Below the pieces are notes generated by a model. That model made no database searches. It had not been told where the DNA came from and worked only from the letters and a program-made list of their open reading frames with translations. 64,000 nt of DNA from Lasiodiplodia sp. COLG20 (taxonomy: Eukaryota; Ascomycota; Dothideomycetes; Botryosphaeriales; Botryosphaeriaceae): positions 2,480,001 through 2,544,000 of the forward strand of contig VNWV01000007.1 of the NCBI GenBank assembly GCA_009801085.1. Direction: 5' to 3'. The position numbers and the translations under genes were made by a program. The stretch's first letter is position 1. Each line of letters begins with the position of its first letter. Below, one piece after another: positions 12,169 through 56,556 of this stretch.

Positions 12169-14739
12169 TTTTTTTTTTTTTTTCTTTTTCAGAGATGGTG
12201 GAATGAGGCGGCGGCAGCCAGGCAGTTGGTTCAGTTGGCGGCTGGGCGTCAGCGTTCGTTTTGCGGTTTGCGGTCGCTGAACTTCGTCTCCCCTTGGCGC
12301 GATTCCCCGTCCAGGCATTTTATGCCGGACTCAGGCGGTGTCCTTCGCGAGCTGTGGTTTGAGCGCTTTGAGATGGGTTATTTTGGATTGGTTTTGTGCG
12401 CTGCTTGCGAGGACCTTTTCTCATCTTTTTCTGTTCTTTGCCGTGACGCCGCGCGCGCTACCCAGGTTCCGTTTGCTCTTTGGAGGGTGTGAGCGGAGTG
12501 GAGTGGAGCGGAACGGGTTGGGGTTTTCCTGGGCGGCACGCGGCTTGCGTCCTTCTCTTATTCTTGACGCCGAGAGCCTCTTTAGTGCTCCCATCCTTTC
12601 GTCCTTCGCTCTTACCTTTTTCTTTTTCGTCAACCTTTGCTTTGTGGGAAGGGAGACGCGTTTGCCGCTGCCGATCGCTGCAAGCTTGAATCAGAATAAG
12701 TTTGAAAGCGTTGCGTTGCGTTTGAGTGTGCATTTGCGGTCTGCAGCAACATCAGCGGCGGCGTAGCGTAAGAATTGTGCGGTCATTGTCAGCGATGCAG
12801 CTAGAAATTTGAGAGTTTGGCGCTGCTCGAATTGGTGCTGACTTGACCGCGCGTCTCCCTTCCCCTTGCATCCGCGAGCGGCGACTCCGGCTGGAACTGG
12901 ATTGAGGCAGCTCCTGATGGCCATCGAATGAGAAAGGCCAAGTTCTGTCTCAAGGTCGGAGGGTTCAGAAATCTGAGAGTTTGGAAGTCAGACAGTTTGA
13001 AGACCCGAGACTGAACCGTTGGAGTTTGGTTGAACGATTGGAGGTTCGATTCGTTCAATGCCGTCGTCGCGCTCGCAGGACGCGTCGCTCCTGTCATGCT
13101 TGATAAGTGCTCTCGGTTGCTCGGCGGATGGAAGCGAGATCCCGGTATCGCTTCTCCGAAAAATGGCTGGGCGCGGCTTGAGAGAGAGGTTCATGCCGGT
13201 CATCTCGTGGCTTGAGTAGAGTGCCAGAGAAGGTCGCCAATGTCCTAGGCCTTAGAAGGAGATATGCAGGCCAGACGGACAAATGGATGATTGGTGAGCT
13301 GAGCGCATGAGTTTGCGGAGCATGCTTCTGCCCGAGTTTCCTCGTTGACTTTGCCGATTGAGAAGGGTTTCGCGGCGTTAGAGATGTGATTTCGTTCAGT
13401 GATGAAGGGAGGTCTCGAGGGCGAGAAGCTGGAGGAGCTGATGCCTTAGCCAGAGATTGCAAAAGGAGTTGTGCGTGGCTGCGGCGAGAGTGGTGTAGCT
13501 CGAGGCGGAGAAGCGCTTTCGATGAGGCTTTGCGCTTTCTCCTGCAGGGCAGTTGGAACAGTAGTCTGGACGAGTTCGTTTGGAGAGGAATTGGAGAATT
13601 CACGTCCGATCGTTGAGTCCACTGCCCTTCAGAAAATGGAGTTTGAAATTTACTCCCAGGATCCTTGGTGTCGTTCGGTGAGGGACCAGCACAAAGCTGG
13701 CAGGAAGCGGCGCAGCGAGAATATAGAGAAGATTCTAAGGTTGCGTCAGCCAAAGCCGCGGTTTGAGGCAATCGGAAATGGGGAACTCACTGTTTGCTGC
13801 GCCCTTCCGCGCTGTTACTGAGGGTTTGACCTGCCTGCTACCAAGTTTGGTCTCGCCATGAAGAGGGTATGGCTCGACAAATATTTGGAGGTTGGAGTTT
13901 GGTAGTTTTCTCGGTGTGGTAGCAGGCAAATCGACAATGTGGGCGCGACCATGCCCTAGATGGTGAGACGTCGCCTGCTTGTGACCTTGCCAGATTTTGT
14001 GGTAAGTGCCGCCGCTCTGCTGATTGTGAATTTGATGGTCTGTTTGAAAAGGAAATGACCAAGCTCAGAGGAGATTGTTACTCGACTCGGAGATGTGGAA
14101 GATTGGAAGTTGGGAGCAGTGGGGCAGCGGCTGTGGAATTTTCTTTTGGTAAGTTTGGGCAAGGTCATTGGCGCGTTGTTTCGCATTTGCCATGAAGCTG
14201 GGATCCTGGGCGCGGTGTCCGATCATGAAATGGTGATCTGGTGGTGAGTTTCACAGGACACTGAAAAGGAAGCGCCGATCCATGCTTCGCAAGCAAGGCT
14301 GATCGTCTCCAGCGGCTTGTTGGTCTTGGGTCTCGGTCCTGTATTTTTTTTTTTTTTGCAGCTTGAAAGTTTTCTGCAGAAGTAAGAGTCGTGCAGAGAG
14401 CGCGATGACTTGGTTATGTCTTCGCGTGTTTGGGAAGCGATTCGCTGCTGCTGCGCTGTGGAAGGAAAGTTTTGTGGGTGGAGACCTGTCCAGAGAACCG
14501 TTTGGAGCCGCTGTAAATAATACTAAAAAAGGAATTCCCACTGTGACAGCTGCCATTCCCTGCCTCTTGCGTATGATGAAGCCCTGTAGAGAGTGGAGTA
14601 AGAGGTGGGGCAATGAGGCAGAGGCATCAGCGCTGAGCTCGTCGAAGGCGCGTGATCAAGGTAGCGATCTCAATGGGCATGAAGAAGTCCCAGCACCAGT
14701 TTGGAAACGCCAAGCTCAGGCTGTGGTGAGGCAAGCTGT
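12169..14739. other. Long non-coding-looking region with recurrent GTTTGG words
   Basis: No gene is supported in 2.6 kb. The words GAGAGTTTGG, GGAGTTTGG and GGAGGTTGGAGTTTGG recur (12808, 12969, 13016, 13883), as does GCCATGAAG, suggesting old degenerate repeats. A T14 run is at 14344..14357. Minus-strand frames such as 13094-13771 are open but low in recognisable content. Confidence 0.4.
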
Positions 14740-33130: not shown

Positions 33131-33249
33131 CGATCATGCCTTAACCATCTCGCCGACCTTGCTGCTCACCTGTCTCTGATTTCAAGTTTTTTTTCTCTTC
33201 CTCAAAAGCCGGCTCAAGGCCAGGTAATTGACGAAAAGAAGTTCGCGTC

Positions 33250-33433
33250 AGCCTCAGGCAGTGCAATAGAGGCGACACTGTGGCAGCGAAGTATGAGCGG
33301 AGCTCAGGGACCAGCTACCCGTTGCCAAAAACTAGTTTAATCAGGAGAAAAGCCCCACGTAGGGGGCGTTCTAGAGATTAAACTAAAAAGAACAGCTACT
33401 TCACTTGATCTAAGCCAAAAGGCAAAGAGAGCT
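33250..33433 (-). ncRNA. U2 spliceosomal snRNA, divergent copy with altered branch-site recognition sequence
   Basis: Read on the minus strand, 33430..33402 gives UCUCUUUGCCUUUUGGCUUA then GAUCAAGUG, the conserved U2 5' end and stem I. It is followed by AAGUAG and then CUGUUCUUUUU. Canonical U2 reads GUAGUA where this gene reads GAAGUA (33402..33397), with one further change directly after it (G at 33396 where U is usual). Stem IIa is kept as UUUUAG, loop UUUAAUCU, CUAGAA; the usual CAG/CUG pairing is replaced by UAG/CUA on both sides, a compensated change. A GCCCC/GGGGC hairpin (33367..33352) fits stem IIb. The Sm site at 33333..33325 reads AGUUUUUGG, one base off the PuAU(4-6)GPu consensus. 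The 5' end (near 33433) and 3' end are estimates based on the usual length of about 185 nt. U2 identity is strong; whether it is functional or a second copy cannot be told from this window. Confidence 0.85.
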
Positions 33434-33472
33434 GAAGAAGAAAAGAGGAGCCTTGGGCGAGGCATCGGGGGG

Positions 33473-42198: not shown

Positions 42199-43253
42199 AT
42201 GACTTCCAACCGCTCTTACAAGCTCAACTCGGGCTACTCCATGCCCGCCGTCGGCCTGGGTACATGGCAGTCCGGCCCGAATGAAGTCGCCAACGCTGTT
42301 TCCACGGCTCTCAAGCTCGGTTACAGGCACATTGACGCCGCAGCCGTCTATGACAACGAAAACGAGGTGGGAGATGGCATCCGCGCCTCGGGCGTCGACC
42401 GCAAGGACATCTTCATCACCAGCAAGCTGTGGAACACTCACCACAAGCCCGAGGACGTCGAGGAGGCTCTGGACCACACCCTCAAAGACCTGGGCACCGA
42501 TTACCTGGACCTTTACCTGGTATGTAACAATTGCATCTCGCAGATAGCATTGACCCAAAAGACTAATGCTCGCCGCAGATCCACTGGCCCGTCTCCTTCG
42601 CCAAAGCCGCCGACATCAAGCAGCACTTCCCCATCAACCCGGAGACCGAAGCCGTGCACGTCATCTCGGTGCCCATCGCCGACACGTGGCGGGCATTGGA
42701 GGCGCTGGTGGCGAAGGGCAAGATCCGCAGCATCGGCGTCAGCAACTTCACGCAGGCGGCCATCGAGGAGCTGCTGAAGACGGCCAAGATCCCGCCGGCC
42801 GTCAACCAGATCGAGGCGCACCCGTACCTGCAGCAGCCGGCGCTGCTCGAGTGGCACAAGAAGCAGGGCATCGTCGTCGCCGCGTACTCGCCGCTCGGCA
42901 ACAACATCTACAACCTGCCCCGCGCCGTCGACGACCCGGTCGTGATCGAGGTCGCGCGCAGCCTGGGCAAGGAGCCGGCGCAGGTGCTAGTGCAGTGGGC
43001 GGTGCAGCGCGGGACCGTGGTGCTGCCGAAGAGCGTGACGCCCGCCCGCATCGAGAGCAACTTCCAGGACTTTGAGCTGCCCAAGGAGGCGTTTGATAAG
43101 ATCACGGCGCTGGATCGGAATCATAGGTACAACTTCCCCATCAGGCTCGGCGTCAACATCTTCGGCGAGCATGATGAGGCGACATTGAAGAAGGGCGTTT
43201 CCGATTGGGTGGCGGCGCAAAGAAAGCTCAAGGAACAGGCAGCGGCGGCGTAG
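42199..43253 (+). CDS. Aldo-keto reductase
   Basis: Two exons: 42199..42519 and 42579..43253 (intron 59 nt, GTATGT donor, CCGCAG acceptor), giving 331 residues. ATG follows CTCCACA. The catalytic tetrad is visible: Asp46 and Tyr51 in HIDAAAVYDNENEVG, Lys76 in FITSKLWNTHH and His109 in LIHWPVSFAKAAD. The NADPH-binding end includes VLPKSVTPARIESNFQDFEL. The closest types I know are the fungal glyceraldehyde/aldose reductases (Gld1, LarA, GaaD), which reduce aldehydes such as L-glyceraldehyde to polyols. It is divergent from the keto-acid aldolase, and this pairing is like that of the galacturonate pathway, where aldolase makes L-glyceraldehyde and the AKR reduces it. That specific pathway is not proved. 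The head GYSMPAVGLGTWQSGPNEVA is typical of the family. Confidence 0.92.
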
Positions 43254-56204: not shown

Positions 56205-56366
56205 GCAGCTTTAGCTCACTTGGGAGAGCGCCAGGTTAGTAGCACTCAGCCTACCGAACTCTCTCAGAACTCATCACTAACATCTCACCAGACTGAAGTC
56301 CACTTCAGCCAACAGCATCATCTGTGCGGTATCTGGAGGTACTGTGTTCGATCCACAGAAGCTGCA
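56205..56366 (+). tRNA. tRNA-Phe (anticodon GAA) with a normal 37/38 intron plus a spliceosomal-type 57-nt insertion
   Basis: Mature segments are 56205..56234, 56292..56298 and 56331..56366, together 73 nt with discriminator A. Acceptor GCAGCTT (56205..56211) pairs perfectly with AAGCTGC (56359..56365). The D arm is GCTCACTTGGGAGAGC, the anticodon arm CCAGA-CTGAAGA-TCTGG and the T arm CTGTGTTCGATCCACAG. The A and B box regions are intact. The second intron (56299..56330, 32 nt) sits after position 37, as usual for tRNA-Phe, and contains CTTCAG, complementary to the anticodon loop CTGAAG. The first insertion (56235..56291, 57 nt) starts GTTAGT, ends CACCAG and holds CACTAAC 12-17 nt before its end, like the protein-gene introns in this window. 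Removing it exactly restores GCGCCAGACTGAAG. It is flanked by a CCAG direct repeat, so the boundary is ambiguous by four bases. It may be removed by the spliceosome or by the tRNA endonuclease, or the gene may be inactive. Confidence 0.93.
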
Positions 56367-56556
56367 AGGAATACGAAGTCCTTACCAGTCCAAGACTGGT
56401 TGCAAGCCTTTCTTTTTTGCCTTTTTCTGGGTGATCTTTTTTTTTTTGTGCTCTCCATCATGATTTGCACAGCAGGTGTATAGTACAACAGGACCGTAGA
56501 GTCCCTTTCTTTTTGCTTATGATACATATGGTAGATTACTCCTATCTGCTAGCCCC

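Follow-up and report, generated by a model that had tools for sequence, protein, structure and literature searches.

Our analysis indicates that the 57-nt insertion in a tRNA-Phe(GAA) gene is very probably a U2-type spliceosomal intron residing in a gene transcribed by RNA polymerase III (Pol III), one of at least 16 such tRNA genes that together represent nine isoacceptors and nine insertion positions. Nuclear splicing is normally divided between the spliceosome, which serves Pol II transcripts apart from oddities in U6 and rRNA, and a protein endonuclease and ligase, which serve tRNA. Of the two readings left open in the initial annotation, the evidence favors a spliceosomal intron within a Pol III tRNA gene: six tRNA-Phe paralogues share it, GT-AG introns occur at other positions in other tRNA genes, and paralogues with empty sites exist in the same genome. 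The genomic evidence is strong that a known kind of intron has entered a new kind of host, the tRNA gene.

Layout of the Interrupted tRNA-Phe Gene

The window is the whole 64,000-nucleotide stretch of DNA that was analyzed, and the Lasiodiplodia assembly containing it (43.5 Mb in 88 contigs) set the scope of the genome searches. The protein predicted from a spliced GH92 gene of the window showed identities of 94% to one from Lasiodiplodia theobromae, 75% to Neofusicoccum parvum, and 73–77% to Diplodia, which points to Lasiodiplodia or a fungus very near it (Botryosphaeriaceae, Dothideomycetes). Window positions 56205–56366 hold a 73-nt tRNA-Phe(GAA) split into three pieces by two insertions, in the order GCAGCTTTAGCTCACTTGGGAGAGCGCCAG, 57 nt, ACTGAAG, 32 nt, and ATCTGGAGGTACTGTGTTCGATCCACAGAAGCTGCA (Table 1). 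The insertion first described between tRNA positions 30 and 31, with its GTTAGT, CACTAAC, and CACCAG, is present exactly as claimed, as is the usual 32-nt intron after position 37 with CTTCAG opposite the anticodon loop. Exact excision was also said to restore tRNA-Phe, and the computed cloverleaf agrees: with both introns removed, all four stems are paired. By their consensus motifs, we take TAGCTCACTTGG to be the A box and GTTCGATCC to be the B box. ARAGORN without introns and Rfam at the gathering threshold did not report the window gene. ARAGORN with introns named it Thr(AGT) and assigned the other five Phe copies to Ala, Arg, or Thr.

Table 1. Features of the window tRNA-Phe gene and ectopic introns in other tRNA genes (C, contig)
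Feature	Location	Strand	Remarks
tRNA-Phe(GAA) exon 1, positions 1–30	window 56205..56234	+	identical in 6/6 paralogues
A box TAGCTCACTTGG	window 56212..56223	+	presumed from sequence; uninterrupted, 5′ of intron 1
Intron 1, spliceosomal-type, 57 nt	window 56235..56291	+	between tRNA positions 30 and 31
5′ splice site GTTAGT (CAG/GTTAGT)	window 56235..56240	+	paralogue conservation
Branch-point motif CACTAAC	window 56275..56281	+	predicted branch A 56280, 11 nt from intron end
3′ splice site CAG	window 56289..56291	+	YAG in 6/6 copies
tRNA-Phe exon 2, positions 31–37	window 56292..56298	+	anticodon GAA 56295–56297
Intron 2, ordinary 37/38 tRNA intron, 32 nt	window 56299..56330	+	CTTCAG able to pair with anticodon loop
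tRNA-Phe exon 3, positions 38–73	window 56331..56366	+	
B box GTTCGATCC	window 56346..56354	+	presumed from sequence
3′ trailer hairpin 1 (AAGGA...TCCTT)	window 56366..56383	+	conserved; AAGAC...GTCTT in two paralogues
3′ trailer hairpin 2 (ACCAGTC...GACTGGT)	window 56384..56400	+	conserved; ACCGGTC...GACCGGT in one paralogue
T6 run, likely Pol III terminator	window 56413..56418	+	T run of at least 5 here in 6/6 copies
Arg(TCT), intron at 11/12	C34:2417078-2417129	+	GTATGT..CTGAC..GATAG
Arg(TCT), intron at 13/14	C1, donor at 529411	-	GTAAGT..ACTAAC..TATAG
Ala(TGC), intron at 9/10	C1:1344076-1344127	-	
Pro(CGG), intron at 10/11	C23:862464-862521	+	
Pro(TGG), intron at 10/11	C1:1781233-1781292	-	
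Arg(CCG), intron at 26/27	C67:1297552-1297606	+	
Trp(CCA), intron at 24/25	C23:1631996-1632052	+	
Trp(CCA), intron at 24/25	C88:1076772-1076826	+	
Ser(TGA), intron at 53/54	C45:115381-115430	-	
Ala(AGC), intron at 57/58	C45:1054006-1054058	+	
Ala(AGC) L197, intron at 57/58	C78:1782902-1782957	-	5′-truncated

Six tRNA-Phe Paralogues Carry Both Introns

Copies of tRNA-Phe were located genome-wide with a pattern for the 3′ half that allowed up to three mismatches, which returned six places. All six genes carry both introns, and an exact search of the genome for the uninterrupted joined sequence GCGCCAGACTGAAG gave nothing. The initial annotation had proposed searching for other tRNA-Phe(GAA) genes and had named intact copies elsewhere, together with a lack of mature tRNA from this locus, as grounds for abandoning its reading; every gene found has the 30/31 insertion, and none is intact. 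Among the six copies, intron 1 is 54–60 nt long and intron 2 is 30–35 nt long. In the six-copy alignment, the only departure among the 73 exon bases is a single base in a single copy, and the body of intron 1 has diverged, leaving GTTAG, CACTAAC, the final AG, and two stray C columns as its only fixed columns. GTTAG is followed by T in five copies and C in one, and in every copy 11 nt separate the A of CACTAAC that would serve as the branch point from the end of the intron. The acceptors read AATAG, GACAG, AATAG, AACAG, ACCAG, and ACCAG. A CCAG repeat flanking the insertion had been noted as a possible duplication made at insertion; the repeat is real in two of the six copies, and since the other acceptors differ it provides no evidence of a target-site duplication, an idea we rejected.

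A 3′ trailer of two hairpins, on which the initial annotation is silent, is common to the six genes (window 56366–56400; L001–L004, L006), with compensatory changes in the stems, and is followed by AAGCC and a T run. The Ala(AGC) genes inspected also have a hairpin-like trailer, which differs from that of Phe. A pseudogene or SINE reading of the Phe copies was rejected because likeness among them is confined to the exons and trailer hairpins and does not extend to the intron body or to the 60 bp of 5′ flank. The Phe arrangement was not found in scans of viral and prokaryote contigs, as expected.

GT-AG Introns in Other tRNA Genes

Ectopic GT-AG introns, lying away from position 37/38 and 50–60 nt long, were found in ten intact non-Phe tRNA genes and one truncated copy (Table 1), which brings the total with Phe to at least 16 intact genes and one truncated copy in nine isoacceptors at nine positions. 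For the non-Phe introns, positions and anticodons were assigned by hand, and the cloverleaf, computed for Phe, was likewise read by hand for the other interrupted genes. This reading gave one acceptor mismatch in Ala(TGC), which counts against our interpretation. Several of the genes with an ectopic intron, Phe included, also have a separate 37/38 intron.

The survey drew on three kinds of search. The Rfam tRNA model gave 60 matches, some of them on the mitochondrial-looking contig C47, and searches for a B box followed by a T run gave 110 (about 100 listed), 51, 96, and 83 matches, compared with 28, 14, 37, and 36 in the reversed controls. From the matches listed by these and by the splice-motif searches below, tRNA-like stretches were picked by eye, 32 at first, then 100, then 20 more that were mostly doubtful. 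Genome searches with splice motifs gave 20 matches against 23 in reversed controls, 9 against 29, 142 (about 100 listed) against 301, and 22 against 21. Since matches were no more frequent than in the controls, the motif counts by themselves prove nothing; the evidence is that the named matches fall inside tRNA genes. Some ectopic introns were first noticed through the splice motifs, and all of them were also found by a search free of such motifs, namely, the Phe 3′ half, Rfam, or the B box with T run. Both Ala(AGC) copies were reached through a B-box-like stretch in their trailer.

An automatic, approximate gene parser recovered 138 distinct tRNA-like genes of the nucleus whose A box is intact, 9 with an ectopic intron and 129 with none. 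Seven further intact genes with ectopic introns, in which the A box is split or the T arm interrupted, were read by hand, so that ectopic introns occur in 16 of about 145 tRNA genes examined. This number is a lower bound because the survey is blind to genes with broken and unsubstituted B boxes, to distant terminators, and to tRNA genes that the eye did not recognize. Nine picks (L138, L141, L150, L155, L161, L162, L169, L170, and L171) and most of the 20 later ones were dropped on inspection as not being tRNA genes.

The truncated Ala(AGC) copy, L197, was kept apart because its 5′ half was not found upstream: about 740 bp searched there contained none of three exact stretches taken from the Ala(AGC) 5′ half. 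The remaining 3′ half, with its T-loop intron and B-box copy, lies next to another Ala(AGC) 3′ end that is degenerate and has a trailer; together with about 200 bp of downstream sequence, the locus looks like a decayed cluster. Four other loci were left out of the count of spliceosomal-type introns. L202 (C18:151400-151900) is tRNA-like: its acceptor, D, and T arms are present, and its anticodon arm is interrupted by a long insertion for which no GT-AG reading was seen by eye. L151, L200, and L201 are relics of Gly-like tRNA genes that also have long insertions and are probably pseudogenes or the ends of repeats.

Splice Signals

All 17 ectopic introns, 16 from intact genes and one from the truncated copy, have GT..AG ends at positions where excision restores the host, are 50–60 nt long, and place the predicted branch A 10–12 nt from the end. 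Their donors are GTAAGT (seven), GTTAGT (six), and GTTAGC, GTATGT, GTGAGT, and GTAAGC (one each). The branch motif CTRAY is present in 16 of the 17, with the off-consensus CTAAG in Ser(TGA).

These signals were compared with protein-gene introns of the window. A crude scan with a loose donor gave 77 candidate introns in the window and 62 in its reversed sequence; since the excess was little, only ten introns in three genes, whose removal opens long reading frames, were used. The ten have GTGAGT, GTAAGT, GTATGT, GTACGT, and GTGCGT donors, lengths of 49–86 nt, and CTAAC or CTGAC branches 12–19 nt from the end, one of them being ambiguous (3 nt by the last CTGAC, 18 nt by the previous one). The tRNA introns resemble them in donor and branch, except that GTTAGT is absent from the ten donors and the Ser(TGA) branch is off consensus, and their length and branch distance are in the usual range at its short end. 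The match to neighboring protein-gene introns that had been noted for the window gene holds for length, donor type, and branch.

How selective the combined signals are was assessed over 1,406,680 segments of 50–60 nt from both strands of the window, requiring a fungal-type donor, CTRA 10–12 nt from the end, and a terminal AG. Seven segments passed, so the fit of the insertion is more than chance. They are Phe intron 1, four protein introns from the checked set, and two further sites, 42520–42578 (+) and 13735–13790 (-), which may themselves be introns. The ordinary tRNA introns gave a different picture. Among the 129 genes without an ectopic intron, 105 inserts of the 37/38 type were parsed; 7 start with GT, 10 end with AG, and 8 contain CTRAY, and none of the 105 combines GT with AG or has a donor-like start.

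Intron bodies of different tRNA families showed no mutual similarity at E below 0.01, and none matched the window at that threshold outside the Phe intron itself. A burst of introners is thus unsupported, since no sequence likeness between intron families appeared among the introns and window compared. The one U6 gene found in the genome has no intron, which counts against our interpretation. As a separate observation, a U2 snRNA gene at window 33237–33435 (-) reads AAGTGAAGTAGCTGTTC where the usual U2 snRNA has AAGTGTAGTATCTGTTC, so its branch-recognition stretch departs from GUAGUA.

Empty-Site Paralogues

Two isoacceptors have uninterrupted relatives at the intron position. For Trp(CCA), L129 reads GGTAGCGCGTCAGATTCCAG without interruption, and L158 and L160 read GGTAGCG/intron/CGTCAG. 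For Ala(AGC), the uninterrupted L041, L056, and L153 read GGGTTCGATTCCCGGCGGATCCA, and L198 reads GGGTTCG/intron/ATTCCCGG. Exact removal of the intron therefore restores, in both cases, a sequence that is real in the same genome.

Promoter Elements and the Transcribing Polymerase

tRNA genes rely on internal A and B boxes, and the ectopic introns stand in several relations to them. The two boxes flank the intron in Phe, Arg(CCG), and Trp. The Ser(TGA) intron sits at the B-box edge, where the G that ends it rebuilds GTTCGAATC. The B box is split by the intron in Ala(AGC), and both introns of this kind contain GTTCGAATC, a complete B box that occurs in none of the 15 other ectopic introns. When the cores of the two introns were shuffled, a B box appeared in 438 and 296 of 100,000 sequences. 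The two introns are paralogous, so the replacement is one event and not two. In five genes, Ala(TGC), both Pro, and both Arg(TCT), the intron splits the A box, which counts against our interpretation; in Ala(TGC) and Pro, by eye, the YAG end of the intron together with exon 2 still resembles an A box except for the first base. The cloverleaf, both boxes, and the T run expected of a Pol III tRNA gene are fully present in Phe, and in all 16 intact genes the B box is either intact or replaced inside the intron. We argue from these kept or replaced promoter elements that the interrupted genes would be transcribed by Pol III.

The same elements bear on another possibility, which we regard as very improbable: that the introns are spliceosomal and the spliced RNA is a Pol II read-through product or a dedicated Pol II transcript. 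In its favor, capping normally aids recognition of a first intron. Against it stand the T runs downstream of the genes and the state of the B box, which is kept intact or, when split, replaced within the intron.

Endonuclease and Pseudogene Explanations

Returning to spliceosomal introns in Pol III genes, the initial annotation had allowed that the insertion might be a noncanonical tRNA intron, spliceosomal in look only. Such an intron would be cut by the tRNA splicing endonuclease at a bulge-helix-bulge (BHB), and a BHB predicted at the junctions had been named as grounds for doubt. This explanation is disfavored, and we consider it very improbable. Archaea are known to have introns at noncanonical positions that include 30/31 and 53/54, and noncanonical introns also occur in some eukaryotes (PMC4090602 and PMC3978253). 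For Phe, one of two BHB orientations also gives a central helix of four pairs in all six copies, but the inner helix in that orientation has only 0, 2, 0, 0, 0, and 1 of three pairs. Across the 17 introns, the better of the two orientations reached a mean of 5.06 of 10 pairs compared with 4.55 in random sequence, and no BHB common to them was found in the two orientations tested. Their positions, running from 9/10 to 57/58, are not the usual 37/38 of an endonuclease intron, and 0 of the 105 inserts of the 37/38 type is alike. Endonuclease cleavage would furthermore leave the GT..AG ends of 17/17 introns, the branch motif, and its 10–12 nt spacing unexplained.

The complementarity of the Phe donor and branch motifs favors an endonuclease substrate and counts against a spliceosomal one. 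Six of six pairs form in five Phe copies and five in the remaining copy. Outside Phe the complementarity is no higher than in protein-gene introns, with 3–5 of 6 pairs in both groups. Because protein-gene introns reach these values as well, the Phe complementarity may be a by-product of two consensus motifs, although the two motifs may still pair in Phe. A GTTAG-CTAAC helix as a conserved element was rejected, full pairing being confined to five Phe copies.

That the interrupted genes are pseudogenes with neutral insertions, the tRNAs coming from intact copies, is hardly credible: a eukaryotic tRNA gene with a D- or T-arm insertion is mostly one among many synonymous genes and is taken for a pseudogene (PMC4090602), L197 has lost its 5′ half, and Trp and Ala(AGC) have insertion-free copies, but splice signals and B boxes are preserved, exons stay fixed while the intron body drifts, and the explanation fails for Phe because all six genes found are interrupted and no other was found.

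Relation to Known Introns

The U6 intron of Schizosaccharomyces pombe is about 50 nt long. Introns of the mRNA type in U6 snRNA genes, S. pombe being one example, are a close likeness in that a spliceosomal intron sits inside a short Pol III noncoding gene (PMC8917221). In contrast, the host here is tRNA, with many genes and nine positions, and splicing would have to work alongside the tRNA endonuclease and accommodate the internal A and B boxes. Spliceosomal introns in the 18S rDNA of deuteromycetes were reportedly described by Rogers et al. in 1993. They too are mRNA-type introns in a structural RNA, whereas their transcripts come from Pol I and are not tRNA.

Noncanonical tRNA introns spliced by the endonuclease are described for archaea (crenarchaea), nucleomorphs, and Cyanidioschyzon merolae, and nucleomorph tRNA-Phe genes can have two introns (PMC4090602 and PMC3978253). 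They and the canonical endonuclease introns resemble the ectopic introns in lying within tRNA genes, sometimes several per gene, in the D, anticodon, or T arms. Their recognition depends on a BHB or the mature domain, without GT-AG ends or a branch site, and the ectopic introns here are the opposite. Introner-like elements, through which other genes of this fungal class, the Dothideomycetes, have gained spliceosomal introns (PMC4457414), are multiplied copies with a shared sequence, whereas the tRNA introns share none between families. Searches of the open-licence PubMed Central literature, exclusive of preprints, listed no paper that describes a spliceosomal intron in a tRNA gene; the term "spliceosom" does not occur in the tRNA-intron review PMC4090602.

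Proposed Processing and Implications

In the pathway we infer, Pol III would transcribe the interrupted gene from its internal boxes. The spliceosome would recognize the GU donor, the branch site with its A 10–12 nt from the 3′ end, and the YAG, and the intron would leave as a lariat. Where a separate 37/38 intron is present, the tRNA endonuclease would take it out, and the joined exons would fold into a normal and presumably functional tRNA. We consider it likely that the spliceosome is obligatory for Phe tRNA, that introns were gained at nine positions, probably in as many events, and that the Ala(AGC) intron supplies the B box it broke.

If this is true, a single transcript of about 160 nt is the substrate of both splicing machineries, and the decoding of an amino acid depends on the spliceosome: UUU and UUC codons would be unreadable without pre-mRNA-type splicing, tying tRNA supply to spliceosome activity. 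It raises the questions of how a Pol III transcript is recognized when its first exon may have as few as 9 tRNA bases, in what order the two splicing pathways proceed, how structural RNAs gain introns, and how interrupted internal promoters survive. Because ARAGORN and Rfam, standard tRNA finders, miss or misname interrupted genes, other genomes may hide such genes as well.

Dependence on splicing is claimed for Phe alone, as the genes suggest, because intact relatives may exist for other isoacceptors, for example, tRNA-like repeats with TCT or TAT anticodons. A dependence of AGA codons on the interrupted Arg(TCT) genes was accordingly dropped in view of this family. It comprises nine full copies and one truncated copy dispersed in the genome (L101, L104, L107, L114, L115, L121, L133, L135, L139, and the truncated L076), with conserved flanks, a 44–46-nt insert at 37/38, and a TCT or TAT anticodon depending on the copy (assigned by hand); it may be a tRNA-derived repeat. 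The Gly(GCC) genes (L047–L051, L143) have a highly conserved and long 37/38 intron of 63–65 nt.
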